Positions 4,767 through 43,159 of a DNA stretch of 64,000 bases are shown here, piece by piece. Below the pieces are notes generated by a model that worked only from the letters and a program-made list of their open reading frames with translations, was not told where the DNA came from and did no database searches. The translations under genes and the position numbers were made by a program. Numbering within the stretch: the stretch's first letter is position 1; every line of letters begins with the position of its first letter. This DNA is from Mucidula mucida (Eukaryota > Basidiomycota > Agaricomycetes > Agaricales > Physalacriaceae): NCBI GenBank assembly GCA_015501055.1, contig JADNYV010000147.1:29766-93765 (forward strand), written 5' to 3'.

Positions 4767-6260
4767 ATGTCTATCGCTTCCGCTCCCGACTTCTTCTTGA
4801 CTCGCGTTGGCGACGAACTCGTTTTTAACCACGGACAGCCTATTCAATCCAACACCGATGTGCCTAAGAAGCGCATCTTGGTTGTTGGTGGCGGTGTAAC
4901 TGGTTTCACTGTGGGTGGTTCAATGATGTGCTTTTTAACGCAGCTTGCTCACGAAACCTCCAGACTGCGTGGGCACTATTAGATGCCGGATACATGTCGC
5001 CATTGTGGCTGAGCGCTGGGCTGATCCCAAGAATCGCATCACCTCTCAAATCGCCGGCGCTCTGTGGGAATTCCCACCTGCTGTCTGTGGAAAGCACACC
5101 GATGTAAGTTTCTCCCTCCTTAGGCAGTTCGCCATCTTACCTTGAATTGAAGGTCATCTCTCTGCACAACTCGAAGCGATGGTGTATGACCGCCTATCGC
5201 GTTTTCGACAAGCTTCAGGAGACGATGCCCCGACGCGACTACTTGGATCATGGTGTGCAGATGCGGATGGCCAACTTCTTCTTTGACCAGAAGATGGAGA
5301 GCATGCCAGATCGCGGTCAACTCGACAAATTCGAAGAAATCTGTGCGCAGAAGGATGTGAGTTTTTCAATTGTTTGACTTTTACTAAACTAACAATGTTG
5401 CCAGATCAAAGGCGTCCGTCGCGATGCCAGCATCGTCAAAGAACACAAAGTCAACCAGAAGGCTGGCGTTGTCGACGCGTACCAACATCTTCACCCGTCA
5501 TTGACACCGACGCATACATGAACTGGCTTCGCTTCGTCCTCGTCTGCAAAGGCGCAGTGATGGAGACTCGCCGAATTAACGGCGACCTTCTTGGCCAGGA
5601 GGAGGAACTCCTCGCCGAGTACAACGCAGCCGCCATCGTGAACGCGACAGGACTCGCCGGTCTTGAACTTGCTGGAGATGCATCTGTGTACCCACTTCGT
5701 GGTGCTCTCATCCGAGTTGTCAACGACGGCAAGATGTTCCCCAAGGTAACCGAGGCCCTTGCTGTGACTCACGACGACACACGGGGGAAGATGAGGACAT
5801 TGTCTTTATCGTTCCCCGTAACAACAACACGCTTATACTTGGCGGTATGTTCGTGTTATCCAGCATGCAAGAAATCAATACTGAATGATATCTCTCAGGC
5901 TTGGCTCAACCCCACAAATACGAGCTCGACCTCACCTTAGACAGCCCCGAAATCGTTCGCATGCGAGAATGATGCAACAACTTCGTTCCCGGTCTGGAGA
6001 ATGCGGAATATGACCCAGATGCGCCTTTAGTGCAGGGTCTCCGTCCTTTCCGCGGCTCCAATGTACGCGTTGAACGCGAGCTACGTCACAGAGCGGACGG
6101 GTCCATGAGCCGCATCGTCCACTCTTACGGACAAGGCGGCGCAGGCTTTTCGCTCTCCTTTGGGTGTGCTGGCGATGTCTTGGAGTTGATCGAGGAAATG
6201 GAACTAGGTCTGCCTCCCATCAAGATGGGTTGTAGCCAACGCCATAAACGTACCTTGTAA
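4767..6260 (+). pseudogene. D-amino-acid oxidase, full-length copy with frame lesions
   Basis: Five exons are clear: 4767-4910, 4964-5103, 5153-5356, 5405-5844 and 5899-6260. Exon 1 has the FAD-binding RILVVGGGVTGFT motif and the last exon has the HSYGQGGAGFSLSFGCA motif. Compared with the left-arm copy or the expected frame, there are single-base deletions near 4993 (TACCAT became TACAT), near 5490 (CTTTCA became CTTCA) and near 5786 (GGGGCG became GGGGG), plus a CGA to TGA nonsense change at 5970-5972. The gene is therefore complete in outline but broken in at least four places. The family deaminates D-amino acids oxidatively in peroxisomes. Confidence 0.85.
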
Positions 6261-6631
6261 AGTTCTGATTGTAGTTGCTTGATTTATTCTCTATTTATGT
6301 TCATTTCACGTCGACCGGCGATCTTGTCCGCGCAGTTGGCACAGTCCAAATCCCTAGTACTATGATTCAGCGTATTTGGGCCTATCTTTTGATGCTCTTC
6401 TCTCTTTCGCTGTCTTAAAAAGCGCGTCTGACGCGTCGGAAACACGTATAGAAACGGCAGGAGCGCTGCCGACCTGTCGATCGGCGCACAAGTCACGTCA
6501 GATCTTCTCTGCCTTCTCGCCCCCATACTACGACCTACCATCGAGGGCGTAGCTCAGTCTTCAGAATCTTCCACGTCGGTCATGTTGCGCGGCTGTTGTC
6601 TCAATTTGTTTCTTTATACCAGGTGACCAAC

Positions 6632-11660: not shown

Positions 11661-14600
11661 ATGCCCAAACACGCGCGTGTGAGCACAAGCAGTATTCGCC
11701 TTTTGTCCTTTGAATTTTCATCAAGTTCAGGACTCGCATCATGACGCGAACTCCACTGCTGATTCGTCGGATTCCGAATCTACACGGCCTCCACCTCCCA
11801 GACGCAAACGCACACGAGCAGGCGGAGTGCCGGCGCCCAAGGCACCCGTCGGGCCCAAACGCAGTCTCCCAGAGGCTGGCAGTTTCAATTCCCACTACGC
11901 GGTCGCACCGCGTCGCGCAGGACGTGACAGGCTGGTCAAGGATCTCAACCTCCTTCAGAACTACGGCGACTACTGGCCTCGGAAGGCGGGATTACGCGAG
12001 CTCATCCAGAACATGTGGGATGGCTGCATGCATGCCATTCGTGGCTGTCCAGATGACATCCAGGTATCTGTTATCTACAAGGACAAGGTGGTGGACTGCC
12101 AGGACTTCGATTGGGGCATCTTGGATCCTTCCTGGTCGCAGAATCTCGAACTCGGCCAGACAGTCACTGTTGTATTTAGGTCGAGGAAAAATATCCCTAC
12201 GTCCCCGCAGGGTCTAGAGCGCAAAGGTGACAGTGGCATTTGGAGCGATGTGAAACTACTGGGATGGATAGGCTTACGCCCGACGGCCCAGAAAACATTC
12301 GAGATTGAGCTCTTCAATCTTGTACGGACGCCGCTAACGTTGGCAAAGATGCGGTTCGGGGCAACGTCGAAATCAAACTCAAACGTGTTTGTGGGGCAGC
12401 ACGGAGACGGTTTGAAGATGGTAAGTACAGTTTCATATAGTGCGTTGATATGGGTTTTCATTTTGAGTACTAAAGGGAATCAACGCGCTCATTCGGGACG
12501 ATTTAAGTGAAGAGGAATTGATTCCGAATCTTAACGTCTTCACTGGCACGAAGCAGTGGGAATTTGACTACAATAAGGCCCAGGATTCATCACTGGAGGT
12601 TATCGAGACCGTCGCCAATACTCCCTTTGTTCCCGGCTTCCTGGTTCGAATTGTTGACTTCCCTCGCGACGCTGTTGACCTGGGACATTTTCTCTTCATC
12701 CGACCCCCGAAGCAAAGTATCACCACAAAAGAGGGCTCCATTCTCATGGAGAAGCACCTGATGCACCGTATTTATGTCAGTATAAGTCATTGCCGATGTT
12801 CTGACTGACGCAAATCATTGCAGGTCAAGAATATCTACGTCTCGAGCGATCAATCCCTTGCCTATGGTGTTAATCTTCAAAACGCGTCTCTTGCGCGGGA
12901 CCGCAACCATATGCGCGGTGTTTTCGATCTTTCCACGGACGTATATAGTATTTGGTCATCTAGTTTTGTGTCCAATGTCAAGGCGCTCGACCTATATCTG
13001 GAGCTTCTTCTCGGAAGACTTCCGTACATCGATATCCTGCACGCGAATGATCTTGAGGAATCGATGATGAACGGCGACGATCTTGAGCTGCTCTGGGATC
13101 GGCTTCGGGAGACGAAGGGTGGCGGTGACATCTTCTTTTGTTCTACTCATTATGAAGACATTCGGATCACTAGAGATGTCTTGCGCAAGGTTCCCTTCCC
13201 CATCCACGAAAGGTTCTACTCCCATCTAGTCCATTACGGGCTGGTTCAGTCTCCCCAAGTCGTCCGCCGCCAGAAATTTGTCAATCTTGCCGAATCGCCG
13301 ATCATTGCGCAACCAACGTTGCAAGTTCGGTACACGCTCCATCTCATCGACAGCTTTCTCCAATCTGAAAGCGAGATGGCGCAGTATAGGGACAACTACA
13401 CCTTCAAAGCTGTCCCACAGGACCTGGACAGCATCGAGATGGACAGGGCTGAGGACAAGGTGATTAGGATCAACGACTGCACCCTGTCGTCCCAGTTTGT
13501 CCACCTGAAATGCGGGATGTGCCCATATTACAAGCGGCATCTACACGCTCGTGGCGAGACGCAACCGCAGGCTGAAGACGTCTCAGAACTCTTTGACGAT
13601 CACCGGTTTCCTGACGTTGGCGCGGACCATCTCTGCCACTGTTCGGCGCTCCATATTCTCTCTCTTATCTCTCAGGAAAAGTCTGGCGTAGGGTCACATT
13701 GGTTGCTGGAGGTGGAAAGGAGGCGATACGTGGCGCTCCAGACGCTTCCGCGGGACTTGCGCTTTCAAACGGTGCAGTCGAATGTCGGAGGCACGGATGC
13801 GCCGCTGGATATAACGCTATCGTGGTGTACTTGGGCCGGCAGTTTAGGCTTCGTTATGAAGCTCTACGATGACGCAGAACCACGACCACGTCTCTTGACC
13901 AACGCAACGCAGGTTCAGGGCCTCCCTCAAGGTATGCCAAACAGCAATTTGTTTCTTTCTTGAAATTGCACGTGCTTACTATACCGTAGAGCCGCCATAT
14001 TTACGAACGTTCGAGTGCGATGGGCCGACGCTTTGGCTTAACGACCAGCTTAGGCCAGGCCAGAAGTATGTGGCTCAAGTTTGCTGGAACGAGAAAGAGT
14101 CTCTTTTCAGCATGCCATATTCGTTCTTAGTCCCACCGTCGCCTCCGCGCTCTTCATCAGTCGTGGTCGAGGAATCTTCACCGAACACGCTGAGTGTAAG
14201 GTGGGCTTCCAGTCCAGCTGACGGCGCCGATGCCTGGATTGTCGCCATTCGGCTCAACATGCAAGAAGTGGTGCGACGGGAGGTGAACACGCCGATGCTA
14301 GAGGAGGGCATAGATGGGCTTTTCGAAACTCTCTCAGATGCTGACATCCTTTTGGAGATCCATGCCAAGTCGACCATTGGTGATGGCATTATAAGCAAGA
14401 ACTACGCATCGTGGTCATCTCATGCGACTATGTACCCGCCGTTCTCACCTCCTATGACGCCTCTACAGGAAACCTTTCATGATTTTGATGAAGCACAAGG
14501 TGGGTGTACTAACCCGAATTCCCCACCGGCGTTCCGCGACTCAAGTGAACTCGAATACGTGGACAATGAGCGCAGCCTTGCATTGATGGCCGCCATGAAG

Positions 14601-16515
14601 GATGATACCGGACACGACGAGCAGCAGATGGATGCAGAGGAGCGCGAAGTCGCGGACCAGGTTCAAGCAAATAAAGGGGGTGTGCCCATCCCTATATACG
14701 ACGAACTTGTGGCGAAACCTTCTCTTCCAGTGAGTCCCTTATTCGTCTGGCAGCCAAGTGTAGCTGACTCCATATGAACAGCTGGTCGATGACCGAGTTT
14801 ACGTTTGTGTCAAAGCGCGCTCCGTGGCAAAGAAGAATCTGGTTGTTGGCAATCACTATACCGTCACGCTCAAAGGCCCGCGCTGCGTCCACATCCAGCT
14901 CGATTCCATTGGTGTGCCAGATGAACCCGGTCCTGATGGACGTGCTTCGGAGGTTATCACTGTCTGCCAGTACATCCCCCGGGTTGCGCTTCACCCCTAC
15001 GCATCGGCTGACGAGTTCCTGTTGGTCTGCCACCCTCGACCTGGCGAAGAACCAATCGATAAGGCGAGGTTTGTTTTGTCCGACGTCCTGGACGTGCGCA
15101 CTGGCCCCTTCTCTATCTCCCATCGGGACGTGCTCGCCGGAAATGAAGCTGAAGGGACGCGCTTTTGCAAGTGGAAGATTGTTTTCGGGGGTACTCGACC
15201 GGAATTCATTCCAGTCGTTTCGCTGAGTGGTGATGCCCCCAGTGCTTTGACGAGTTTAGATTTTGCGGATATATCATGCGGGATTGGAGGCGCGTCGCTT
15301 GGCTTCCGCGAAGCTGGCTTCAAGACATGCTTTGGTGTTGAACCGGATGAGATTTCTTCGATGCTGTTTGAGGTGAGTTTCTTCAGATGCATTTACAGAT
15401 GCGATCTCAACAAACATTCAGAGGAACTGCTCCGTTGAGGTCTATAATGAGCCGGTGGACAGTTTCATAGGACGCGCTGAGTTTTCGGAATATCAGTTTG
15501 CGGCGGTATTCGTCGACTGTGATACGAGAGATGGCACACTCATACAGTCAATACGGGCACTCAAACCGGCATATGCGGTAGGTCCACTCTAGTGGTATGT
15601 ACACTGAGCTGGCTGATAACTTTCACTTCCTATTAGGTATGTGCTCTGTCGCCCGTAAGTCTTAGTTCTCCTCCTCTTCCGTCTTCTTTTCTAAAAGTAA
15701 TTGGTTCTTCATCAGGACGTGGACCCCAAACAGCTTGACGACAATGAACGCGAAGTTATGGAACTCGGATATCGCTTCCAGTCGCAGCTGCTCGATGCCG
15801 CGGACTTTGGCGTGGCCGTTCACCGGCGATATATGTTGGTAATTGCGGCTGCGCCTGGTCGAGAAATGCCCTCCTTCCCCGTACCCCATGAAAACATGGC
15901 GCGCCTGACGCTCAAGGATGCCATCGAGGACTTGACGTGGGATAACACAAAGTGTCGCCCTTCAGACCGAGGTCTTGCGACATCGTTCAGCCACAGTGTG
16001 AACCAACCGCACGGGGTTACGTGGCACTGCACCAGTTGTTATGCCCCCGATTTCTCGACTTGGAATCCGGCTACTACTATCGCTGACTGGGACGAAGCGC
16101 TACCTGGTAAGGTCTTTACTTCCCTTGTGTTTGTTCCGATGATTCAATTGGTGTAGATCTGTTTACATTGCCTTCTCAAAATGTCAAGTGTCGACACCCG
16201 CGTGCGTTCTTCAGTACCCTTTCTCTTGTCCCATACTAACGCGTTGGTTTCGACACTAGACCATCCGGAGCGTTTCCTCACTGTTCGCGAAATGGCGCGG
16301 ATCTTATCGTTTCCGGTACGGCAGATTTTCTTTCATCTTTTCACAGATGACCGGAACCATAATTTCAGGATAAATGCACCTTCTCGGGCTCGCTCGAGAA
16401 ACAGTATGGCCAATTGGCGAACTCGATTCCGCCTCAGTTTGCGTGCGCAATTGCGGAAGAAATTCTTAACGTTGTGTCTTTTACGAATCCTGATCCGCCA
16501 AAAGCGAGATCTTAG
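11661..16515 (+). CDS. Divergent GHKL ATPase - FN3-like - C5-cytosine-methyltransferase-like fusion protein
   Basis: Twelve exons with canonical splice sites keep one frame for a predicted 1419 residues: 11661-11678, 11731-12420, 12476-12775, 12824-13931, 13990-14729, 14782-15372, 15422-15577, 15637-15654, 15716-16106, 16157-16201, 16260-16315, 16369-16515. After a basic, Ser-rich leader comes a GHKL-type N-box LRELIQNMWDG (E96, N100, D103), a degenerate G1 region and a G2-like loop GQHGDGLKM (228-236). IYVSSDQSLAYGVNL with RDRN resembles the segment after the ATPase in Hsp90/MORC-like proteins. Residues about 750-850 look FN3-like (PPSPPRSSSVVV...LSVRW). A possible BAH-like part follows. Then DISCGIGGASLGF (from D1115) is methyltransferase motif I. 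LTVREMARILSFP is motif IX and QYGQLANSIPP is motif X. The PCQ and ENV motifs are not found. Substrate and activity are unknown. Confidence 0.8.
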
Positions 16516-22672: not shown

Positions 22673-25600
22673 TCAAGCAAGCTGAGGATCACCGACAAGA
22701 AGTACCTTGCGCAGTTCTTCCGCAATTGCTTGAGAAAGCAAGGGCGGCATGGCACTCGCCAGTTGGCTATACTGTTCTCGAAGCGAACCAGTGAACTCCC
22801 ATTTATTCTAAATAAGTAAGGTGTTTCATCCAATCAACTCTTTCCACAGGAAAACAGGCAGCCTACCGATATCCCCAGAATCCGAGCCATCTCAGGGACA
22901 GATAGGAATCGCTCCGGGTGGTCTACGCCAACCATATATCAGTAAGGCAATGTCCATGTATACTGGAAAGCACCTACGTGGATGGCGACATTTGACGGTC
23001 TCCGAAGGCAGGAGAAACGCGTCTACACCTCCGTTTCATTGACAAGACAGGAGTGAATCGAAAAACAGAAAGCTTACCAGGCAAGGGTTCTTCCCATTTC
23101 GCTACGGTAACATCGGGATCCCAGGACGTCACATCAGGCAAGTAGCAGCCCGTACAGTGCCACGAAAGCGCCTGACGCTGGTCAACAGTGAGGTGCGGAA
23201 ACTCGGTCGCAAAGCCCTTGCCCGAGGGCCGGCACGTCGCATTACTCCATTCCAGATCCGAGATGGCGTCTTTGAGTGTACGCGGGACGCTCGTCTTTGG
23301 CGGAGGAAAATCAGGCATCTCTCGGCCGGGCGCACACGCGATTACGACGAAATACTTTTTGTGTGCCGCAACCCCGAAATCCGCGCAATCGAGGACCCGC
23401 CCTTTGAGACAGTAACCTAGCTTCATGGCTTTATATATCATGTCATAAAGCTTTCGGCGGTCCGTGTCCTATGAGGGTCAGATTACCAAACTGTAGGGTG
23501 GCAAGGGTGATCACTTACGGGTGAGTGAGCGCAGACCTAACACCATCCAAAGATCAATGTTCCGTTTTGCTAGGGAAGGAAGAACTCACCGCATATGCAG
23601 GCCTAAACTCTTCAATACACTTCACGAAAGTGTCCTTGGAAAGTGCTCGCCCATTTCTCGTATCGCAGTTGATCAACAAAGCTGCGAATGGGTATTGCAG
23701 TATCGGCTGCGCGGACCATGAGCGTGAGAAGAAACTTCCTGTCGATTCCTTGAGAATGGCTGTCCGAGAATTCATCTACGAAACGAGTTGGTAAGCGGGA
23801 AATATTCACAAAGTGACCTACACTGAAAGCAGAAGCAAGAGTCACATCGGGTTCAACAACAAAACGATGGTTGAAGCCCGCCTCGCGGAATCCCAGCGAG
23901 GCGCTACCCGTCCCAGATAATATTTCGCCAAACTCCAGTATTGGCAGGGCAGGCGGAGTATCACCGCAACCGAGGACAGGAGTAAATCGAGGTTTTTCAC
24001 CATCGCAGAATACAATGTTCCACTTGCAGAACCTACCGTCGCCCACCTCGGGGACCTCAGCAAGGCCATCAAGGTCCGCGACAGATATTGCTTCTGAATG
24101 CACGTCCACGATATCCGAAAGACGAAAATGCGCTGGATCGGGTCGTGGTCGACATATCCGCAGCAGCTCGTTGGGTGGCGCGTCTGGCTGGAGACGATCC
24201 CCGGCGATCCCGGGGTATATACTGACGTACAGCGACAATGTCCTCATCGTCTGGACCAGGATCGTTGGGGACGCGGATGGAGCGGATGGATATTATCGTA
24301 CGCTCGAATAGACGCCCATCGGCTCCTTGGAGACCGACGACGAACGACTTCCCAGCAGTAAGCTTCTTCTTGATGCCTTGTACGGTAATCCATCGGACGT
24401 TGACGTTTATGTAGGTTTCGTCACCGCTCGGCTAGTCATGACAGTTAGTGAAAGGCGCTCCTTGGATCAAGACTAGACATACCGAAATACTTGATTTTGC
24501 CACCAGTTCATCGTATGTTGGAATAACGAGTTCGGCGACATTCTCTGGGGTCTGCTCTCCACCTTCAACGTTCTGCCCAGCATTGCCGAGGTCGTTGGCA
24601 CCATGTACAGAGCGCTCATGATCAACATTCTCCATCTCTTGATCAACCTTGGGCGACGGCTTTGTTTTTTGACACGGCCATGAAGCGCATTTTGTACTCG
24701 TGAGGCCGTCAAGTTTAGTAGACTTTGTATATACATCCACAACTAATGCTAGTGCTCGCGATGTCGGCCGGCAGATTCTCAACCCTTGTGTCCAGCGTCG
24801 GCATGGAAGCCTCCTTTCGCAGGAGCTCCCTCTCACCGTGGCGAACGACGACAATCCAACTATCAGCGCCATCCGTTTCTGAGTTAGCGGTCCATGTAAT
24901 GAGAAGTTGATTAGGCAAATGCTGCACGACAGCAATCGAGGCTGAAGGCGGAGGCCAGGGCGGGACAGTGAAATGGTAGGGCAGGCTATAGAGGGATCCT
25001 TGCCCAACACACTTGCGCGGCGTATTTCTGTCCTCGAGGAACCAGATCGGTGAGGCGAAGGAGCCTTGTCCAGGTTGATACTACCAAGCTTGGTAGTCAG
25101 GCGTTTCGTTGGGGGAGTAAAGAATAGGAATTTCTGAAAGTCAATTCTCTCCGGTGGATAGTTTGTAATGCGAACGAGAACGCCAGGTACAAAGGGGATG
25201 TCAGACCGGGTTTCTCGAACCTCAAGAGACTTTTCGTCGTTGTATGCGAAATCCCATTGGACATTTCCGGTAACATAATGGACGTCCAATGCACAAGTCC
25301 CGTGACTTCGACGGCGACTTTTAAGACAGTCAATCCCCTTCATATTCAGGTTAGTTCGTTGTCTGACTTGCACATTCATTATCACTTGCCATCTTCATTC
25401 CATCTCTCCACTCACCGATGGTTACAACTTCGTTGGCTTTGGTACTTGAGCCGAATGTCATAGCGCCCAAGGTAGGAGGCACGTGCAAGTTGAACAACTT
25501 AATATTAACACACTGCTCCTTGCCCGATCGAAGACTGACCCAGCCAAGTAGTCGGTCGTCGCTCCATACTCCGCAATCACCTCTCCGCTCGAAACGCGAA

Positions 25601-26201
25601 ACGCGAGAACGGGGCCGTTTGCGTTCTTGGAGAGCATCCTCCCGTTGTCTAGCGGTGGCTGGAGGTCGGGGGAGGCTGGGAGGCTTGGGAAGTGTCTTCT
25701 TGACTCGAAAGAGAAACGTGAAGAGTATGCCATTTTTGAGGTCTCCAAGAGACTCTTCGACGGTCCAGAGAGGATCCGTACGCAAAACAGCGACACCATC
25801 CACCAGGAAGCACACTTCAATGTCCTCCGCCGTCATTTTACGCCGTTTGGAGCGCATGAACGCGACACATCCGTCCCAGGTGTTCTGCAATAATTCGCGT
25901 AGACCCGCTTCCACAGGCCAGAAGGATCGCGTGCCGTATTCCCGTTGAATGTTCAAATTGTTTGCGTCGGAATGCCATGTGTTTGGATGTTGTACTCCGG
26001 GTTGAACGCGCCAGCTTCGGGAAGCCTAGGTTTTAACGGAGGCCGTTTACTCGTCGTGCCATTCGCTACACCACTCGTTCGCGCACGTTTATGTTTTGGC
26101 ATGTCACTGTAATTAGATTCACTGTCCTCAGAGCTATATTGTGACGAGTCGGAGTCATCAGATCCAAGGGCTTCCGGGTCTTCGATGGCATGGCTGGGCA
26201 T
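22673..26201 (-). pseudogene. Decayed paralog of the GHKL-FN3-methyltransferase fusion gene
   Basis: From ATG 26201 the minus strand reads MPSHAIEDPEALGSDDSDSS... then GLRELLQNTWDGC (N-box), FNLHVPPTLGAMTFGSSTK and GEWRDGMKM (G2-like loop). Next come WDFAYNDEKSLEVRETRSDIPFVPG, an FN3-like part (LLITWTANSETDGADSWIVVV), motif I (EILSGTGSASLGFREAGF), the 18-base micro-exon (VCAHSP), and motif X (QYSQLASAMPP), ending at 22673. Nearly the whole region equal to exon 4 of the intact copy (about 370 residues) is missing near 25060. Frame changes are needed near 25955, at the deletion junction, near 25010 and near 24200. A roughly 30-residue basic, Pro-rich insertion lies inside the ATPase part. It is in inverted orientation to the intact copy, about 6 kb away. 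Confidence 0.8.
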
Positions 26202-30301: not shown

Positions 30302-30830
30302 TGTTAGCGACTGACTAAGCCACGAGACTCAACCAGGTACCACAGCAAGAACTGAAAGAGAAAACGTTCGCGTTCGTAAGACTAGGCTAGGCCAGGTGTA
30401 TAAACGAGATCGGAACTAAAGTACAATGATACTACACTACTGCTTATATACTATTAAGTCTGTGTTTGAAGCTCCTTGTCCATACGCGTTTCCACTAGGG
30501 ATGCTCCACGCCCTTGACCCAGTGTTGTATGCTACTAGTCCGTGAAACCATTAAATACGAGTGGTGACTGCATGTAAGTAATAATACTGAAACGACCATG
30601 TGTACTACAAGTGTCGGCGGTGTGTATACAATAGGGAGTCCATGAGGTATCGGCATGTATGATGTCATCCATGTGTTGGGCGTGTGTCCGACATGAGTAC
30701 GGCTTCGGTAATGAAAAGGGGTATGATCGGTGACGAAACAGATGATGAAACGGTCCGTTGGTTGATAAGACAAGGCTCCCGATAAGATATGATAAGATGT
30801 GAAAATGTGAAAATATGGCGATTCATAACA
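30302..30830 (-). repeat. LTR (3' LTR of the minus-strand element)
   Basis: 529 bases. It differs from the other two LTR copies in the window at roughly eight to ten positions (for example ACTGAAAGAG against ACTAAGAAAG near 30350, and AAAAGGGGTATG against AAAAGGGATATG near 30715). Confidence 0.9.
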
Positions 30831-30843
30831 TCACCCCCTCCTT
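30831..30843 (-). other. Polypurine tract of the retrotransposon
   Basis: On the minus strand AAGGAGGGGGTGA lies directly before the 3' LTR start TGTTATG, the expected place for the plus-strand primer. Confidence 0.6.
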
Positions 30844-31049
30844 AAGGCGCAAGTTCCATTCTGCGCCAGAGTCGCTCCATGAGGGCTGCAGAGGGTAGCG
30901 TGACGTCGAGGGGTTCGGTATCGGGCGGTGGCATGGGTCGGAAAAGATGTGATGGAAATTGCGACATGGGGACTTCAATGCGAGCAAGCGCGGGTGGCTT
31001 TGGCTTGTTCGGATATTGTTGGTGGAAATCACTGATGGCTTCGTCGGCA

Positions 31050-34000
31050 TTTTTGAGATTGCATGCCGGTTCCCATGTCTGCTCGTGTGTGCCGTAACCC
31101 TTCCAGTGAACCTTGTATTGAAAACCCCCGCGGTACTTCCGGGAATTCACCACTTTCTCGACCTCCCATTCCGGTTCGGCTCCTTCCAGCACAGGTGGTG
31201 GACGCGTGTCTTGGGGTTGCGTCGGAAATTGCGGCTCGTGGTAAGGCGTCAGCAGGGCCTCATTGAACACGGGATGAATGCTTTTCCACGTGTGAGGAAT
31301 CTGGAGCTTGTAAGAGCTCGTCCCGACTTTCTTGATCACTTTGAACGGCCCGAATCGTTTGTCATCGAGCTTCTTCATTGGTCGATCCGTGCTGAGATTC
31401 GTCCCTTCCAGCCATACTTTGTCGCCTTCCTTGTACTCTACTGCTCTGTTCGCTTCCTGTCATAAAACCGTTTCATGTCCTCTTTTGCCATCTTCAATGC
31501 TGACCCACTTCATCCCATGTCTTCCTCATGCCATCGGCAAACTCCTGCGCAGTCTCATTTCTCGATGCCGTTTTCGGAGCGGTGCCTTTGTAGGGATGTC
31601 TGCCCATGTCTGCGAAGAACGGAGTGACTTTGGTCGCCGAGTGAACTCGATCGTTGTAAACGAATTCAGCAGAGGGTAGCCATTCATGCCAGTCGTTCTG
31701 ATGATAGTTGACGAATAACCGTAAGAAATGTTCTATCTCTTGGTTCAACCGTTCCGTCTGCCCATTTGCCTGTGGATGATACGCCGTTGTAAAGTTTCCT
31801 GTATGCCCAACAACCGATACAATTCCTTCATGAAACGCGAGTGATATTGTGGACCGCGATCATGTATCATCTGTCGTGGCATCCCATGTATGGGGAAAAT
31901 GCGATCACGGTAAATGCGGGCCATGCCTTCTGACGTCAGAGTGGTGTGTGTCGGTATGATACGTAATCGCTTGGTGAAATGGTCCACAAACGTGCTGATC
32001 GCGTTGTATCCTCCTGATTCCGGCAGCTCTCCAATCATGTCCGTCCCTACTATCTCCCATGGCTCGCTTGGCACATCAATAGGATGAAGAGGTGCAGCCG
32101 GCTTCGTGCGATGTGACTTTGTAACCTGGCATTTTTGACACCCTTCTACGTATTCCGGACGTCTCGGCTGATTCCTGGCCACCAATAGGTGCGTGTGATC
32201 AGCTCGAGGGTCTTGTATCGTCCAGGATGCCCTGCAAGCTGTGCATCATGTGCATTCCAATAACTCTTCCCCGCAATTCCTTGTCCTTTGGTATGTAAAT
32301 ACGATCCTTCCATATAATAAGTCCATTTTCCTTCTCTTCCCATCCTTTTTCTTTGTTTTCTAATGCTTTTTGTACGTATCTGTCTTTGTTTCCTTTTCTT
32401 TGTTTGATTTTGTTAAGTAATTCGTCCTCCGGTGTATCTACTGTATGTAAAGAAAATTGAATTTGTGAAATAAAAAACTCCGGTTGAGCAAAACAACGTT
32501 TTCGTTATCTTTTTCCCCCTTCTCAAGGCCTGTCATCCTTGACAAGGCATCAGCTTTCCCCATCGTCTTGCCCGGCTTGTGAATCATTTGTATGTCATAC
32601 TCCGCCAACTCCGTAACCCATCTCGCCTGCCTCCGGTTCAACTTCTGCGGTTTCCTGAAGTACTGAAGGTTTTGATGATCGGTAAAAACCTCCACTGTCT
32701 CCTTAGCGCCTAGGAGATATTGCCGCCAGTCGTCGATCGAGTCCATAATAGCCATCATCTCTTTGTCGTAGATCTCATAATTGCGCTCCACTTCGTTCAG
32801 CGCGCGAGATCGGAAAGCTACTGGTCTCCATTTTCCGTCAACAAACTGGGAAAGAACCGCCCCGTTCGCATAGTTCGAGGAGTCCGCCTCGACTCGAAAC
32901 TTGCCGTCGTCGCGTGGTACAATCAGAACGGGTTCTTCCGTCATCCTCCGTTTCAACTCCTCAAACGCCTCGTGCTGCTCCATCCCCAAACCCATCGCCC
33001 TTCCCGGTTAGCGATGTCAACGGCTTTGCTACTCCCGCAAATCCCCGAATGAAACGTCGGTAGAAGTTGCAGAAGCCCAGGAATGACTGCACTTCCTTCT
33101 TCTTCGTCGGCTCCTTCCATTCCTTCACTACGGCCACTTTTGCCGGATCCATCTTCACTTCTCCTCCTCCAACAATACTCCTAAGTATCTACAGTCTGTG
33201 CCTCAAAACTACATTTCTCGGGTTTTAAATACAGCTTATTTACTCGTAATATTCTAATACCTTCGTACAATCTGTCTATGCTCCTCGAGAGTGTTCGTAA
33301 AGATAAGTATATCATCCAGGTAAACTATAACATGTCCGCCATCAATCAACTCCTTCAAGATGTGATTCATGAACGATTGGAACGTTGCCGGCGAGTTTGT
33401 GAGTCCGAAGAACATTACTAATGGCTCAACAGCCCTCGGTTTGTTCTAAACGCCGCTTTCCACTCATCACCGTCTTTGATCCGGATGTTATTGTAACCCC
33501 ATCGGACATCCATCTTTGTGAAAACCTTTGCTCCCTTCAACTTGTCGATAAGCTCCTGAATCAACGGCAAGGGTATCGGTTCTTGATTGTCATGTCGTTC
33601 AACTTCCGATAATCCTGCACTGGCCGAAGGCTTCCGTCCTTCTTCTTGACAAAGAAGAATGGTGACGCCATGGGTGAGATTGATGGCCGTATGCGTCCCG
33701 TGCGTATGTTTTCCTCCAAGAACTCGTCTAATGCCTTCTGCTCGGATGGACTAAGAGGATAGACCTTGCAGTCAACCGGTTTGGAACCAGGCGTGAGTTC
33801 TATCGCGTGATCCCAGGGTCTTCGCTCCGGTAACTTATCAAAGTCCGCCTTGCTGAATACATCGGAAAATTCCTCGATGTAAGGTGCAGCAGCAGATGAA
33901 GGCTGTTGTGATCTCAGCTTTTCACCGCTTTTGCGATAGTTGTCCCAGTCCATCCAGAACAAGCGCTCTCCCTCTTCCAACTTCTCTTCTACATCTTCTC

Positions 34001-34546
34001 CTTCGTCTTCTGGCGAGTCGTACTCAGGTAGATATCCGCAGCGGTCTGGGCATCGATCAAAAGACAATGTGGATTCCGTCCAGTTGATCGTGGGGTTGTG
34101 ATATCGTAACCAATCTAGCCCCAAAAAGATGCTTGTTTTACCAAGATTGGTGACGGCCAACTCAATCTTTTCTGCGTGATCACCGATCTTCATCCGGACC
34201 TCCACAAAGCCTTCGATTGCTCCTCCCTGTTTAGGGTTCCATCCGCATTGTAGACAGGGAGCTTGACCGGTAACTCCTTGATCGGGAGTCCGTTCTTCTC
34301 GACGAATTCTTTATTGACACAAGAACCCGTTGCTCCACTGTCAAGAAGGGCACTCGTTTCCCATTCAGAGCCTGTGTGTACGCTCTCTATGGTTACTCGG
34401 AGTTTCATGTCCTGCCCCTTTGTTCCCCGGATGTACTTCCTCGACTTTTTCAACTCCGTCACAACTTCCACCGCGGCTTCCTTTGTCAACGCTCTGATCG
34501 CCATCACCTTCTCCTCCGTCGCTTCTCTCTCTCTCCGCTCCGGCAT
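31050..34546 (-). pseudogene. pol region: protease, RT, RNase H, integrase, chromodomain
   Basis: Protease: SALLDSGATGSCV near 34340. Reverse transcriptase: [21 protein letters not shown] near 33630 and the catalytic YLDD at 33322-33311. RNase H: RVEADSSNYANGAVLSQF, VFTDHQNLQYF and KADALSRM (32540-32995). Integrase: HDAQLAGHPGRYKTLELI, GTDMIGELPESGGYNAIS, HDRGPQYHSRFMKEL and a tail with NGQTERLNQEIEH (31700-32290). Chromodomain: EWEVEKVVNSRKYRGGFQYKVHWKGY (31080-31190), thought to steer integration to heterochromatin. At least six frame changes or stops break the polyprotein. Confidence 0.9.
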
Positions 34547-34812
34547 CCATGCTCTAGAATTCCCACTGCTCTCGACACGTCATCCTCTCTTAGCCGTTGT
34601 GCAATCCACTCGGGCGTATTTGGCTCAAATCTTTCTTTCGCAGGTTTTGTTGGTGAAGTCGTCGATGATATTTTAGATGTTTCAGTACCCGTACTGTAAA
34701 TAAATTCTCATCTGACGACCCTTCCCTTGATGACTGCTCCGGCAGGACTGCGTCTACTGCGGGAGCTTCGCAAAACCCAACTCTTCGGCCAACTTCTTCT
34801 TCTCCTCGTCGT

Positions 34813-35673
34813 TCATTTCGGTCCATAGACCCCGAATTGTCTGGGGTCGACCCTTCTTAGGACAGAACCTGCTGACATGGCCGTGCTCGCCACAGCTGAA
34901 GCAAAGTCCTCTTCGACGTGCGTTGTCGATGTCCATCGGTCTGCCGGCTCCTCCATAGGTAACGCCGGTGGCATCTCGTCGTGTGATTGGCGTCGGGGGT
35001 GGATTCGTAGGTTGACTCTCGATGTAGCCGCCTGCGGAGCTTGGGGCCGGACCTGCATGCCGGACCTCTTGCTCGCCGCCCGCCTTCTCCATAGCTGATC
35101 GATCTGAATGATCTGTGCCTTCCAATCCTTGTACTTCTTTGGCAACCCATCTCGGCTGCCATAGATCTGGTCGATGATCTTCTCGTTGACATTGGTCTCG
35201 AGAAGTCGCACGACAAATGCATCATCCTTCGAGTATTCCGCCTGAGTAAGCAGGACCTCGAACTTCTGAAAGAAATCTTGAGCGGTGTCTTGCCCCTGGC
35301 GCAACCGTTCGATCTGATCTTGCGCATCTCGCGCGAGGTTGGAGTCCACAAATCGCTCCTTCAAGTTCTCTTTGAACTCAGTCCAAGAGACTGTCCATTC
35401 CTCTTCTTCCTCATCGAAGTTCTGGTCCGAGTAGTTCTGGACCCATGCATCAACGTGATCTCCTCGGATGTAGGAGAGAACAACATCGATCCTTTCGGAG
35501 TCCGATGTGAGGTTGTTCTTCTTGTCACGGATGTATGTAAACATCGATCGCCACCAGCTCTTGTACTTGGACTTGTCCCCGTCATAGTCATAAGGCTTGT
35601 TGACCAGGGATCGGCCTTTGGTTTCGTCATTGGCGGGATGAGCGGGTGTGTGATGAGCGGCTTCGTTGGACAT
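34813..35673 (-). pseudogene. gag region of the retrotransposon
   Basis: From ATG 35673 (MSNEAAHHTPAHPANDETKG) the product carries KSWWRSMFTYIRDKK, FKENLKERFVD and DFFQKFEVLLTQA, the usual retrotransposon gag core. A frame change near 35090 moves the zinc knuckle CFSCGEHGHVSRFC (about 34865-34905) into another frame (34754-35125). Confidence 0.88.
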
Positions 35674-36272
35674 GATGAATCGAGGTGATAAGATCGGAGA
35701 GTGAAAGGGTGAAAGTGGGGATATGGGTGATGCGGATTTGGATGAAACGGGTGAGGGAATAGAGGTTTGGATGAATAAGGAGGAATCGCCTAGATCTGAG
35801 ATAGAATCCAGGACTTGGTAGGGTGGGGAATGATGATGTGTATCGTAAGGTAAGTAAAGTAGGTAGGTATCGTAACTGTCTATGCTATTTTACCGACTAC
35901 TGACTACGTATCTACGGAGCCCAAGAGCTCGTCACAAGTTCGCAATTGCCCAGCCGACGTCCCTCTGGTGTGAGGTAAGCCGAAGTTTTCCTGGGAACGG
36001 GGGTTGACCCGTAAACAGCGCCCACTGAAGTGCAACTGCCAAAAGTTCGTTCTCGTGAGAGCGGCTACTTCCAGCACCCGAGGCAGTTATCTCTAACTGT
36101 TAGCCGGCGCTACTGGGACCAATACACACGTATGCGGACGTGCGCTGGGATTAGGAATCCGTCAATCTGTAAACAGGGAAAGGGAATAGGGGAATGTGCG
36201 ATGATCAAACAGCGAAGTGCTGATCGACGATCAGGGATGTGTGGTAGGTGGTAGAAAGTAGTTCCGATCTTC

Positions 36273-36808
36273 TGTTAGCGACTGACTAAGCCACGAGACT
36301 CAACCAGGTACCACAGCAAGAACTAAGAAAGAAAACGTTCGCGTTCGTAAGACTAGGCTAGGCCAGGTGTATAAACGAGATCGGAACTAAAGTACATTGT
36401 ACAATGATACTACACTACTGCTTATATACTAGTAAGTCTGTGTTTGAAGCTCCTTGTCCATACGCGTTTCCACTAGGGATGCTCCACGCCCTTGACCCAG
36501 TGTTGTATGCTACTAGTCCGTGAAACCATTAAATACGAGTGGTGACTGCATGTAAGTAATAATACTGAAACGTCCATGTGTGCTACGAGTGTCGGTGGTG
36601 TGTATACAATAGGGAGTCCATGAGGTATCGGCATGTATGATGTCATCCATGTGTTGGGCGTGTGTCCGACATGAGTACGGCTTCGGTAATGAAAAGGGAT
36701 ATGATCGGTGACGAAACAGATGATGAAACGGTCCGTTGGTTGATAAGACAAGGCTCCCGATAAGATATGATAAGATGTGAAAATGTGAAAATATGGCGAT
36801 TCATAACA
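36273..36808 (-). repeat. LTR (5' LTR of the minus-strand element)
   Basis: 536 bases: the 529-base form plus a 7-base duplication-like insertion near 36395 (AGTACATTGTACAATG against AGTACAATG). Apart from that it is nearly identical to the solo LTR at 58117-58645, closer than to its own partner at 30302. Confidence 0.9.
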
Positions 36809-39130
36809 GTATTGCGATCACCGTATCTGAAGTGGTTGTTCCTGGTACCATCATGAGCCAGCATCACAAACGCGCACTAAATAGCTTTGGCGAGGTACCC
36901 TTTGATGTGGTATGTCATCGCAGTCATGTTCACATCGTAGACGGTTACACCGCCGCCACCGCTTCCGCCACCATTGCTGCCACCGCCGCCATCTGCTCCA
37001 GCAGATCTTCCGGGCCCTATTGCTATTGACTCAACCCCAACTATAACCCAGACAACATTGTCTATTCCGATGATGGGTGTGCCGGATGATGATATTATCA
37101 GTCTTGGGGAACTTCTTCGTCAATGCGACCTCGATTCCGATCCAGGTCAACTACGCGATTTGGATCAGCACATACCGGCCTTGGTGGACCTGAACAGCAA
37201 AGAGATTGAAGCGTTGCTTGGATCTCGTGATGTACCATTGGAGGAATACGCTCACCTTGTGCGTAGTCGAGTTCTCAAGGATGTGTTTCATCTACTCGAC
37301 ATGATTTATATATCACGAGTCCACGGCCTATGTATCCCATTTGCCCAGGCGTTTCGTGATGCACTTTTTATTCCTAATATCAAGGATAAAGCTCGCATTG
37401 AAGTGTGGCTCCGGACGAAGAATCTGAAATGGGAGGATATGCTCCGCTACAAGTCCGCCTGGTTGTGGCGCCACTGTCGCCGTACCATTCCTCCCCCAGA
37501 AGTGCTCTATCCATTGGTGTACGATGTCTTGCATACTTGGGGGGCACTGAAAGATGCTAAAACGGGCCTGCCGCTCTTCAATGCATCTGCTTGGCAGACG
37601 GCAAAGAACATTCTTGACCTCGTACGGAATGGGTATGTCTCTGATCCTCCTGGAGTCACGCTGTACTACTGCATCGGACTTAATGCTGAGGCGAATGGTC
37701 TGCCTATCTATCGCTGTATTTGAGGAACCAACATGACTGAAGGTGGTGTTCATACACACCTCCGTTCTCGACTTCCAACAAGCGGGGTGTCAGTTTGTCA
37801 CATGCGAGCATGCTTACTTGACTTCGTGTTGCGGCATAATCTTCTTGTAAGTACAAACATGAACTTGCCTTCTTGAAGTGCTCTGATAATTCTATAATAG
37901 GTTGGTACCTACAACTCAACGGGAAAGAAGTACCATGGACACGATTCAATATGGCTTACGAACGAAATTCAAGAGCTGGAGATCACCCTTTCCGAACGCT
38001 TTTCTAATATGAAACCAAGCAATCCTTCCTGGGTAAACGGTAATCTCTATCAACAGACCACTGAGGAGGTGGGGATTCTCCGTATCCCAGAGTCTACACG
38101 GATAGAAGCATGCATACAGCCATTCAATACAACTCTCGATGGTAAACAAAAGCAGAGCTATCTCGCACGCCTACAGGGAACGAGCAAGGCGGTGCTACCT
38201 CTACATACTGCCGTCGAACGGAAGCTCTTCAGCGAACTCATGCAAACATGTTCTGACTTCACGTCAACAAGCGGCAACATTCATTCGAAGGCAGTCCAGG
38301 TCTGGAACCGACGTGCTCACAATGACCCGGACATATTCTATAAGGTATCTTTGTTTAATCTATGTAGTACCTATGCTTATACCTCATAAAGCTTTCGGAA
38401 CAGCTTACGGCTTACTTCAGTGGCGACTGGAAATCTAATGCGAATACTCGGTTATCACTCTCGCAGGCATTTAGCAAGACTCAGCCTCTCCAACAACGAC
38501 TACATGATCCAAAGCGATCCAAGAAGATTATCGCCACCAGTTCAGGTCCGCTGATTCCTCATCACGTCACCCAGGGCTATCAGAGTCTTGATGAGAACAT
38601 GGAAATCACACATGGAAATCAGCCGTACGTTTCTCACAGATGGACATCTTGTATCGTGTTAATTCATTGGTGATTTAGATCAACTTCTTCAGGATCTACA
38701 GAGTCTATATCAATGTCTACAACGTCTTTGCCAATTGCGCCACAAGTTCATAGTGCAGGGTATGTCGAGTCTCTGAATTCTCAGGGTTGATCTCCTTCTA
38801 ACTTACCGTGACCAGGAGCTTGTATCCGGCATCGACGTATCAACGCCAGCTCCGGTCAATCCAATGGTGGTCTTAAGCCGCAAGCGCGCGTTAGAAGCAC
38901 AACCCGATCAACCAAACAAAAAGGAGAGAAAGGAGCGAGCTTGTCAACGCTGTGGGCGTGAGAGTGGTTGTAACGGTAGACAGGCATGGTATCGATGCCA
39001 GTATGCATGCCGCGACTGTGGTGAGCGAAGTGTTCGCGCATGTGCGGGACGTCAAGCCAACAGTCCAAAAAAGAGAAGTTGTGGACCACGCGAAATACCT
39101 GCAGCCGCAGCTCGTCATGTTATTTCATAG
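36809..39130 (+). pseudogene. 3' part of the DDE/exonuclease element gene (copy A)
   Basis: Begins in mid-gene directly after the LTR (GTATTGCGATCACC...: AITVSEVVVPGTIMSQHHKRALNSFGEVPFD). It then carries the frame VPDDDIISLGELLRQCDL...YAHLVRSRVLKDVFHLLDMIYISR (to 37723), GTNMTEGGVHTHLRSRLPTSGVSV, GTYNSTGKKYHGHDSIWLTNEIQELEITL, and the cysteine cluster CQRCGRESGCNGRQAWYRCQ...CRDCG. It lacks the transposase-like and exonuclease parts, which exist only at 52.8-58.1 kb. A one-base deletion near 38833 breaks the frame before the cysteine cluster; copy B keeps that frame open. Confidence 0.75.
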
Positions 39131-41822
39131 CCTACCTTATTATCTTAGTCCGACTTCTACCAAATCCATTGTTCTGCCTCGCATGGTTTCGACGAGGCAA
39201 GGACCCTTTTGCCTTATTGAGACAGTAAATGGACTCGGCAATGCGGCAGACCGGTGACTTTCGGAAAACGCCATCCACTAGTGTTCTAAAAAGGCAATCT
39301 CTCACGAATTTCCCACTCCCAACAGCTATCAGCGTTTGCTAACGGCTGCTGGATGCTACTGACCCCGTAAAAATTCCCAAACGGAGCTTTGTGATGGTAT
39401 GGAACATATGGCTTGCAACGTAAATGTATCAGACTCTCAGTCGCTCTCTTTCTCCCTTTTTCTTCTTCCTCTCTTTCCTTTTTTGGTTTTCTTTATTTTT
39501 TTATTTTTTCACCCACAACATCGCTATCGAGCCCGAATTTCAACTCTAAATGATAGGGTACTTTGTGGTTTACAGGGTCCATATATCTAGAAACTTATAT
39601 ATATCACCACAAATACCAAGAGCGGAAACCCGGATGATGGGTTTGCATGGTGCGCGCGTGCCCTCCGCTTCGGAGGCTCTATGCGATTTCCGGACTGTAA
39701 AGGGGGAAATAAGCCGCGCCACGCTCAATCATAAATTTGTCTCCCAGCTGTGGAATGGTCGCACCTGAAAAGACAACCGCATAACTTTGTTGAGCTGCAA
39801 ATATATATGATGTTGCCTTGCATAAATGATGATGCATGCCACAGAGACATGAAGACATATCAAAGCTATTCGCAGAGAACACGGCTCTGAAGGTGTTGGA
39901 GGACTCGCGCGGCCTTGGAACGCTCACGATGCTCGCCCACATTGCCGCGTGAGCCAAGACGGTCGATTGCAAGGATGGAAGGCCGTTCAAGGAGAAAGCG
40001 GTCGAACCAGTTTGAGTTACAAGGTCTTCGCAATCCTATAAGAAGCGATACTTTGACTCCAACGATTCAACCTGGCTAGCCAGTCCATAGCAACAGAGGA
40101 TTGACGTCTTATGATGTGCTCCAAGTTGTCATAACACGCCGATATGTACCGTTGCCGAGACGTTCATGGTCTATTTTTGGCGAGATTACCTAGGCCTGCC
40201 GTCCGGACCCTAGGTAATGTGCATCCCCCGCCATCCCGCGCACGATAGTGGCAAGCTCAAAACTTCCGCCACTCTCCCATAACCCATTACCAGCGAGTTT
40301 CAGAGCCCTAAAGCGGGTCTTCAATGCCGAACTACGCAGAAAGGCATTGTCCTCATTGGATAAACACTAGACTCCTGATGATCGGTGCATTCTCTTCAAA
40401 GGAAGGACTTTGATTGGCTAGGCGTGCATTCAGATCTCCCATTACTACAACTTTCTTGCCCGCCAGCTCTGCTTTTACCAAGGACAAGTCAAGCATTGCA
40501 CAAATGTCCATCTAGTGTTGGCGCTTGGCAGTGCCGCCGCCGCCGCTTGCTAGTCTGAGTCTGTCCAACTCTGATGTCTCGATCCTTTCAGTAGTAAGTA
40601 TATCAACTTGCCACATACATAGTGACGTCCAAACCGCCTAATCGCAGCACTGAGGTGACCATGCCATGAATGACATGAACTGACCCGACGTGCTATTGGA
40701 TGTGACTTGAGATTTGTAAGATTCTTGCAATTATCCTTGCCTAGACTACTGACCTCGAGAGCCGCCTTCAAGCTCCAAAAACATTGGCAAAGGCACAGAA
40801 GTCTGTGGGACCAAACACACAGACATACTGGGGTGGTAGGGTGGAAGAGCTCCACAATGTATTGTCTTGCCTTCGCTAAGTTTTTGGTGGCGGCGGCACA
40901 GCACGACTCGGTGGGCCCCCAAAAGATGGCGGGGTCGGTGATTGGAAGGCTTGATGAGTACCAAACATTGGTGGTGCGAACCACAATGGCATTTAAGACT
41001 ATGCAGCAGGTCCCGCAAAGGTAGGCAGATACCATGGCACCGAGTGGCGGACCATGACATCTGCAACTAGACTCAGATTGCTGCGGGACAGGTGGTGATG
41101 GAGCAGATGGAAGAGTGCTAAACTCAAGAGATAGTCTCAGACAAACAACGAGGAGGCCACAGCATCGCACTATGCAAGGTTATGAAACACATGGCGGCTA
41201 CAAAGTAGTACCACGCTGGAGTGAAGAAGACACACTGAGGACATTGAGAGCACGATACACATTGCAGACGCGAAATGAAGAGAGCACAAAAAACTAGAAA
41301 AGACTTCTAAGGAGAGGGCGCGCCGTGGGCACTGCCTGAAATAAGGTGAGTGCCAAAGATGGAGGAGCAGCACTTACAGAAAGGGGGTCACGCAATGGTA
41401 GGCAACTTCAACATGTTAGAAAACACCTCAGCACGCCCTGTGTCCATTGGACTGGCAATTGATGATGAGGTTGGCGCTGGGTTGGCGGGAGAGTCGCTGA
41501 TCTGGGTCTCCGGACGGCAGGCCCAGGTAATCTTGCCAAAAAATAGACCATGAACTTCTCGGCAACGGTAGATATGTCGTCTCCGTGTCAAGCTATGTAT
41601 GACGCTGGTGACCCCGCTTCCAATCACCCAACGGACGAAATGGTACTCTGCTGTTTACTCCAAGATGCCGCAATGTTGAGGCTTTGCCTTGCTGAATAGT
41701 TCGTGCGTAGGCTCTCGTGCTAGTGCGGCAGGAAACGATCTGAAAACAAACAATGCTGAATTTCTCTGTTCTCCTTTTTATTACCCGTGAGCATTTTCGA
41801 TTTATCTACATTGACATCCACC
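39131..41822. other. Long stretch without supported gene (duplicated in copy B)
   Basis: Contains a pyrimidine-rich tract at about 39436-39512 and a 206-codon minus-strand frame (40550-41170) that is Cys/Leu/His rich, without recognisable domain or ATG. Its exact twin at 60969-63660 results from the duplication, not from selection. Confidence 0.5.
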
Positions 41823-43159
41823 TTATTTCTTCTTGTTTACATTCTCCAGGGTGTATGTCTCAACTTCCTTCAAGAACTCTGCCTTGCCTTTCACAGGTGC
41901 CCAACCCAGTCGTCTTGCTCGGGTACTGACACAGCGGCTGTTGCCGCCAAGGATATGCATAATGATTTCCTAAAACTAAACTCAACTTTGGCAAGCAGTT
42001 CAGCGCGTCGTATACTCACCGGGAGGCCCAAGTCGGTAAACTCTTTCACTGTAATTGGGCGTCCCTTGGAAACTGCTTTCCCAGTCATTGCCCGCGCAGC
42101 GGTTAGCGAAACCTCGCGAAGTTGGACAGAGCCATTTTCTATGAAAAAGTACCCTTCTTTACCGTGCGGGACTCGTTCCCACTCCGACGAAAGAAGCTCA
42201 GTGACCAGGAGTACGAGAAAATCAACGACTGCGTTCGGGTCAGTTGTCGGGTTAACGAGGCCAAAAAGACACTGACATTCGTGAAGTTCTACAATCGCCG
42301 AGTAATTAAGGCCTTCTCCAATCATGACAGGTTGCGGAGGGCAATCACATTCTGAGGCATACCGCTGGATAAGTATCGGTAGCCGTTGGGGTCTTGTATG
42401 CCTGCATCGACTAGTACTCCGCTAGACGGGCGAAGATTCCGCCAGGAATGACCAGATAGGAATAAATCACGCCTGGATTCTTGTGAGTGAGATGGTTTGT
42501 CCACCTGTGCTATGCGTACCGTCTTCATCTGCTTTGAGGAATTCTAGATCGACGTTACAATGAATGCGAGTAATCTCGAGCGACGCCATCTCTTCAATGT
42601 TCGCATCGTCCCAAACTTTGTTGGGTATATCGCGGCCTAGGGCATCATCCAAGAGTACACCTGCGCCGGACTGGGATACTATGTGTTAACTATCATCGAA
42701 ATGCAATAAGGCAACAAACGTACAACGTGAATTACACGGGTCTTCTTCTGCGATTTCTTCAGAGCGGCTGCGATGTTCTGAGCTCCAACAGATCGTCGCA
42801 GTCGTACTAAGAGGTTATACAAGTCAGTACGTCGTTAGGAATACTCAATTGCGAGGACACTAACAGAGTCGACGAGGAGATCAGTCTTTGAGCAGATCGA
42901 CCAAAGGAGCAGCATCAGTGGTCGGTGAACCTTCCACCACCTTGAGAGGGCCAAGGTTCAACTTCCGAAGCTTTTCCGCCTTATCGGCGCTGCGAACAAG
43001 TACTGTAATGGATACATGTGGGAGTTTGAGCAGGCGAAGAAGGAGGGTTCCAGCAACGTAGCCTATTGATTGGAGTATCTGAGTATGATTGGTACCAGTG
43101 TTCACAAGGAGATGTGACGTACCAGTTGCACCAAAGATGAGAATGTTGGTCTGCGACAT
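41823..43159 (-). CDS. NmrA-like NAD(P)-binding Rossmann-fold protein
   Basis: ATG 43159 opens MSQTNILIFGATG, where GATG is part of the dinucleotide-binding motif. After an intron comes YVAGTLLLRLLKLPHVSITVLVRSADKAEKLRKL. Later exons give DDALGRDIPNKVWDDANIEEMASL, DPNGYRYLSS, and EGLNYSAIVELHECQCLFGLV...GYFFIENGS. The end is ILGGNSRCVSTRARRLGWAPVKGKAEFLKEVETYTLENVNKKK, with TAA at 41823-41825. This fits atypical short-chain-dehydrogenase/NmrA-type proteins common in mushrooms; the substrate is unknown. The 3' portion lies inside segmental-duplication copy A. Frames appear intact across about five introns. Confidence 0.65.

Follow-up and report, generated by a model that had tools for sequence, protein, structure and literature searches.

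The classes of fungal DNA methyltransferases (DNMTs) named in the available text of a paper from 2016 that surveyed the DNMTs of basidiomycetes (PMC5073141) and of two reviews from 2021 (PMC7862722) and 2026 (PMC13297926) are DNMT1/Masc2, Dim-2, RID, DNMT2, DNMT5/Rad8 and DNMTX; a keyword search of the main text of all three did not return the term GHKL. In the available text of a 2008 paper, MORC proteins are reported to be missing from fungi, and prokaryotic MORCs/paraMORCs to be associated with methyltransferases (PMC2292703). We report here on a gene in a 64,000-nucleotide stretch of the Mucidula mucida genome (contig JADNYV010000147.1; hereafter the window), which encodes a predicted GHKL-fold module, an FN3-like module and a DNMT1-derived domain in one chain. 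An earlier note on this DNA, made from its letters alone, had proposed that a GHKL partner lies outside the known fungal DNMT classes, and the architecture is indeed not among the classes in the texts cited above. DNMT5 is comparable in that an ATPase and a C5-methyltransferase domain are likewise present in a single fungal protein; its ATPase is, however, of the SNF2 helicase type and its methyltransferase is active, as described in the available text of the 2026 review (PMC13297926). Moreover, the open-licence literature gave nothing joining DNA methyltransferase, Agaricomycetes and GHKL, nothing joining HATPase, DNA methylase, BAH domain and fungi, and nothing joining GHKL with the WLM domain.

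A single gene with FN3-like and DNMT1-derived parts

The gene covers 11661-16515 on the forward strand. A splice model gives 12 exons (11661-11678, 11731-12420, 12476-12775, 12824-13931, 13990-14729, 14782-15372, 15422-15577, 15637-15654, 15716-16106, 16157-16201, 16260-16315 and 16369-16515) that add up to 4260 bases, i.e., 1419 codons and a stop. All 11 introns are GT-AG and the frame has no internal stops; the exon chain of the earlier note, with one open frame of 1419 residues, was correct. The encoded parts follow in the order GHKL domain, transducer-like part, a His-Cys-Cys-Cys (HCCC) site, FN3-like module(s) and DNMT1-like methyltransferase domain.

Homologues were searched for among 5.8 billion proteins, where the 8000 candidates having the most words in common with the query were scored, and three matches were obtained at an E-value of 0.001. 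One is a plant DNMT1 (P0003). The other two are full-length fungal relatives, one from Hymenopellis radicata (P0001; Agaricales, Physalacriaceae; 1456 amino acids), which is 43% identical over 98%, and one from Artomyces pyxidatus (P0002; Russulales; 1573 amino acids; E-value 6.7e-69), for which the best local alignment shows 26% identity over 46% and which aligns in two blocks, residues 1-649 and 725-1408. The order of the parts is identical in the three aligned proteins and the fusion is therefore not an artefact of a single gene model. That two adjacent genes were wrongly merged in the model is extremely unlikely, since each of the two other fungi has an annotated protein with this layout in a single chain and the alignment runs across the junctions. 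The combination of a GHKL fold, FN3 and a C5-methyltransferase-derived domain within one intact gene, as put forward in the earlier note, thus stands, and two further members of the Agaricomycetes have the architecture. At least three fungi carry the gene, a lower bound because the search requires shared exact words.

The FN3-like module comprises residues about 754-848 (14133-14417, forward strand). Its Hymenopellis counterpart matches FN3 domains structurally (blocks with a predicted local distance difference test score, pLDDT, of 43-74 in the model), and profile comparison with the Neogenin FN3 gave an E-value of 0.0051, while the Pfam fn3 match was weak (0.064). Residues about 669-753 (13820-14132, forward strand, with the intron 13932-13989) form a possible additional module, so the FN3-like segment of the earlier note is supported for the former part and only possible for the latter. 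Downstream, a conserved stretch (residues 953-1100; 14782-15225, forward strand), aligned in both fungal relatives, occupies the position of the BAH domains in DNMT1. A BAH domain was suspected here by eye but not demonstrated; Pfam, the PDB profile search and hhalign against plant DNMT1 BAH were all empty, the hhalign test being weak as its targets were single sequences, and the structural model was too poor here to be used.

The DNMT1-derived pseudo-methyltransferase (residues about 1113-1404; 15262-16467, forward strand) was delimited with Pfam, profile and alignments. The window protein matches PF00145 (7.6e-22), and a three-protein profile searched against the PDB matched DNMT1 structures best (4.1e-28) and HaeIII at 1.8e-18. 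As in DNMT1/Masc2, motifs I (CGIGG), IX and X are retained, which agrees with the earlier note, and so is E1139. The window protein differs from DNMT1/Masc2 in having GHKL and FN3-like parts, in having no Pfam RFD or BAH match and in the loss of motifs IV and VI. Specifically, the PPCQ loop of motif IV is deleted in the window and Hymenopellis proteins, with the DNMT1 loop unpaired in the profile alignment, and in the Artomyces protein CPSREYF aligns to PPCQGF, which places an Arg at the position of the catalytic Cys. The ENV of motif VI is also lost, the Artomyces protein retaining only its Glu (EAT on ENV); PPCQ and ENV are missing in all three full-length fungal members. The target-recognition region is shortened relative to DNMT1 (a gap in the profile alignment), and the Cys loop is likewise missing in the readable parts of two decayed copies of the gene (see below). 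A misread splice concealing PPCQ or ENV was considered and rejected, as the reading of exons 6-9 agrees with the Hymenopellis protein.

With the catalytic Cys and ENV missing in all three, these proteins should not methylate DNA and, judged from the alignments, the methyltransferase looks dead. The earlier note had implied ATPase activity and methylation in one enzyme, which these losses do not support, and it mentioned neither them nor the replaced Asp in the GHKL module (see below). That the methyltransferase is still active, its catalytic loop having been rearranged, would be in line with the retained motifs I, IX and X, but is highly improbable given what is missing in 3/3 proteins and the Arg in one of them. 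Cofactor binding would be possible since the glycines of motif I and Glu1139 are retained.

Four further C5-methyltransferase loci were detected in the genome, on contigs C116 (with a near copy on C818), C172, C305 and C1. ENV was read at all four and the Cys motif at three, i.e., SPACQ (C116), GTSCVD (C172) and GPPCQ (C305), the C1 motif being hidden by an exon break; the C305 and C1 loci match plant DNMT1 (tblastn). PADLOC scans of the fungal proteins gave methyltransferase matches (among the best 25 of 38 and the best 25 of 48).

The GHKL-fold module and its non-fungal kin

The predicted GHKL (Bergerat-fold) domain covers residues about 77-313 (11941-12706, forward strand, split by the intron 12421-12475), as assigned from motifs and an AlphaFold2 model of the Hymenopellis counterpart. 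Both the N-box and the G2-like loop of the earlier note are present and conserved in a 12-protein alignment. In the N-box ELIQNMWD (residues 96-103; 11998-12021, forward strand), E96, Q99, N100 and D103 are invariant in the 11 rows that cover it, and the pattern E..QN..D is found in 13 of 14 family proteins, the remaining one (P0007) being without its N-terminus. The G2 loop GQHGDGLK (12394-12417, forward strand) lies within GQHGDGLKM, residues 228-236; G228, G231 and G233 are invariant in 12/12 rows, as are N202, G216 and K220, and K235 is present in 11/12. The Asp of the GHKL G1 box (DxGxG) normally touches adenine. Its place is taken by Asn202 (12316-12318, forward strand), which we take to be the equivalent residue from the motif order and the GHKL consensus, and Asn is found here in all 12 alignment rows and all 14 family proteins. 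Hence, the N-box ExxxNxxD, the G2 glycine loop and a Bergerat fold followed by a transducer are found, whereas the adenine-contacting Asp is not, and we therefore refer to a GHKL-fold domain and place it in no named GHKL family.

The fold itself is predicted from the Hymenopellis model, for which 50 of the 50 matches listed are GHKL ATPases (Hsp90/TRAP1, topo VI-B and GyrB), over the counterpart of residues 77-313 and beyond; the earlier note had set a GHKL fold in residues 80-240 as a test beforehand, and this is where it was recovered. The alignments to TRAP1 and topo VI-B extend to model residues 393-400 and define a transducer-like part (residues about 314-434; 12707-13117, forward strand, split by the intron 12776-12823). 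It includes an RDR motif (361-363) with R363 in 12/12 rows and R361 and D362 in 11/12. Further on, His563, Cys569, Cys607 and Cys609 (13502-13642, forward strand) are each present in 12/12 rows and may together bind zinc.

Hsp90 and TRAP1 stand at the top of the structural matches, and the N-box pattern is the same as in Hsp90. The protein might thus act as a chaperone or assembly factor of the Hsp90 kind, with the dead methyltransferase as a mere protein-binding surface and no role in chromatin. This appears quite unlikely as the likeness is structural only, with no Pfam HSP90 or HATPase match, and as descent from DNMT1 suggests a nuclear location.

None of the Pfam, NCBIfam or PF13589 searches recognised the module. 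Pfam gave no match for the N-terminal module of the window protein, neither HATPase nor HSP90 is among the 12 Pfam families matched by the 14 family proteins, NCBIfam gave no match to the module, and a PF13589 search of this genome did not list the window contig. The GHKL+HCCC module is accordingly without a family in the Pfam copy searched. MORC GHKL-S5 ATPases likewise combine an ATPase-fold module and a transducer in a presumed chromatin factor; the window protein differs in its replaced G1 Asp and in having no Pfam HATPase match. A CW zinc finger gave no Pfam match in the window protein at an E-value of 10. MORC and MutL are not among the Foldseek matches listed for the model. The MORC link drawn in the earlier note does not hold in the strict sense, the relatives found being GHKL-HExxH proteins of other, apparently eukaryotic origin.

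Eleven non-fungal kin of the module were identified. P0004 was found in an alignment search, P0005 as a weak match of the same search (E-value 5.8) that is a family member by its motifs, and nine more (P0006-P0014) in a search with P0004. They are mostly metagenome or transcriptome records, together with two EukProt entries and one from Eukaryota sp. TZLM3-RCL; a eukaryotic source, shown for few, is likely for all. P0004-P0013 share with the fungal members the N-box, the G1 Asn, G2, RDR and HCCC residues, and differ at the other end, where the fungal members have FN3 and the pseudo-methyltransferase and these have a peptidase-like part. An HE[LI]xHN (HExxH) motif is present at the end of 10/11 non-fungal kin and 0/3 fungal members. 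The Pfam WLM cut-off is passed by P0005 only (1.1e-8), with P0006 (1.1e-4) and P0009 (1.2e-4) near it, weak matches in P0004, P0007, P0008, P0011 and P0012, and none in P0010 and P0013; the 29 columns that surround the motif gave a profile match to Wss1-type proteases (4.8e-5). P0014 (EukProt) joins a GHKL fragment to a PARP domain (1.9e-14) and may be a transcript chimera. Taken together, P0004-P0013 appear to represent an undescribed GHKL+HExxH (WLM/Wss1-like) family with a G1 Asn. As the kin end in either a WLM/Wss1-like part or PARP, the GHKL module has, going by these sequences, probably swapped its C-terminal partner more than once.

These partners suggest a conflict or repair factor, in which GHKL+HCCC would be the sensor of a modular family exchanging C-terminal parts (WLM/Wss1-like peptidase, PARP, pseudo-DNMT1), e.g., against DNA-protein crosslinks or foreign DNA. 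The HExxH motif, the Wss1-type match and the PARP domain argue for it; against it, WLM reaches the cut-off once, the peptidase motif is absent from the fungal proteins and PADLOC found nothing in the four non-fungal proteins scanned (4/4). On balance we regard it as unlikely. A viral or prokaryotic source of the module was also considered and dropped, as scans of viral and genome contigs gave no relative; each used two short peptide patterns, which distant kin may escape. A relative of P0006 was not found in this genome in a search run without a positive control.

Gene copies, haplotypes and selection

The other haplotype, or a near-identical copy, lies on contig C681 (locus L009) and differs at 16 of 7154 aligned bases. 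Of these differences, eight are exonic, three of the eight being nonsynonymous, and the frames are unbroken. Over the 4855 bp of the gene there are 10 substitutions and no indels (2.1 per kb), and the nonsynonymous share of 3/8 compares with an expected fraction of 0.72 (P 0.046, transitions weighted 4:1). Just upstream of the ATG, this haplotype has about 441 extra bases (L009 1154-1594, against window position 11573), which are perhaps a small mobile element inserted in the promoter region.

A decayed paralog, which the earlier note does not mention, lies tail-to-tail with the intact gene (22680-26110, reverse strand; tblastn and genome search). It has stops and frame breaks, part of its ATPase module was not found, and it is also present on C681, with 29 substitutions and 6 gaps in 3431 bp. 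Another copy, on contig C937, is an ortholog of the Hymenopellis gene (81% identity in the best exon) and looks decayed, being interrupted by one stop and by two or more breaks of the frame, although assembly errors would also account for these. The host is accordingly likely to be a near relative of Hymenopellis. Segmental duplication as its origin was rejected, since the surrounding ≈29 kb shares nothing else with the window (blastn, and tblastn of the window open reading frames, ORFs).

Haplotype divergence is no proof of selection here: divergence is equally low on both sides of the intact gene (0/1153 bp upstream, the insertion aside, and 6/2211 bp downstream), and low divergence alone therefore shows no constraint. 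A better argument than the nonsynonymous deficit is that so long a frame has stayed open at 43% identity to the Hymenopellis protein; the case for selection on the intact copy, as read from these sequences, is weak. The family might instead be a disappearing relic with no strongly selected function, the intact frame being its youngest or least decayed copy. The decayed paralog on both haplotypes, the broken copy on C937, the few carriers found, the lost catalytic motifs and the regional nature of the low divergence are all consistent with this. Against it stand 4.26 kb kept open and stop-free over 12 exons at 43% identity to the Hymenopellis protein, the invariant ATPase motifs, the weak nonsynonymous deficit and the higher divergence of the decayed copy between haplotypes, though its flanks also diverge more (5.5-5.8 per kb). 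We consider a relic unlikely.

A possible chromatin role and other features of the window

Our preferred reading, which we hold tentatively and rate at slightly less than an even chance, is a probably nuclear factor of some Agaricomycetes that acts, without catalysis, as a nucleotide-driven switch binding chromatin or DNA. The N-terminal GHKL+transducer module with its HCCC site would bind nucleotide and open and close as a dimeric clamp, like Hsp90, MutL and topo VI-B, and the one or two FN3 modules would be a spacer or protein-contact arm. As the catalytic Cys and ENV are lost, the DNMT1-derived domain may serve as a platform binding DNA, S-adenosylmethionine (SAM) or S-adenosylhomocysteine, or a DNMT, bringing the clamp to chromatin or regulating the active DNMT1 enzymes of the genome. 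DNMT3L also has a dead DNMT-derived domain and is without an ATPase, and the likeness is one of working logic only. By analogy, the whole protein might function as would a MORC-type ATPase fused to a pseudo-methyltransferase of the DNMT3L type. In the available text of the 2026 review DNMT3L is described as a catalytically inactive paralogue (PMC13297926).

Several points weigh against this reading. The folded protein is that of Hymenopellis and not the window protein (pLDDT 69.9, predicted template modelling score, pTM, 0.60), and Foldseek gave TM-scores of about 0.3 at best, with 9-14% identity to GHKL structures among the matches listed. For the C-terminal half (pLDDT 38.6, pTM 0.26), of which only the FN3 part was used, the model does not recover the methyltransferase fold. 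ATP binding may be changed or lost with the G1 Asp replaced by Asn, and SAM binding is uncertain since the consensus Phe of motif I is Ser in the window protein. Two copies that look decayed and only three fungal carriers found imply that the gene may be dispensable. Finally, the function is inferred, and so are nucleotide binding, the dimer clamp, the nuclear site, DNA or SAM binding and a part in silencing or defence.

In a wider and less probable version, which we rate as rather unlikely, the GHKL+HCCC module with its invariant Asn would define a eukaryotic ATPase-fold family not described before, which would swap C-terminal Wss1-like peptidase, PARP and dead DNMT1 parts. In this family the nucleotide preference may have changed, as Asn stands where the Asp would read the purine. 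The mushroom member would unite the roles of MORC and DNMT3L in a single chain, loading on DNA and steering methylation or silencing while methylating nothing itself. In fungi, a module of the GHKL type has been joined to a DNMT1 domain and the methyltransferase then retained without its chemistry, which would offer a natural test of DNMT folds as chromatin readers. It also points to a widespread GHKL module with no family in the Pfam copy searched, for which Asn202 and the HCCC residues can be tested.

Elsewhere in the window, a long inverted repeat (456-1745 / 5017-6304) has arms that are 95-100% complementary with a similar reading frame in both. ORFs at 30842-35889 (reverse strand) resemble a Ty3/gypsy retrotransposon as judged by eye, with gag including a zinc knuckle, protease/reverse transcriptase, RNase H and an integrase with a chromodomain. 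Near-identical direct repeats are present at 36273-42164 and 58117-64000, 21.8 kb apart, with parts also at 30302-30720.

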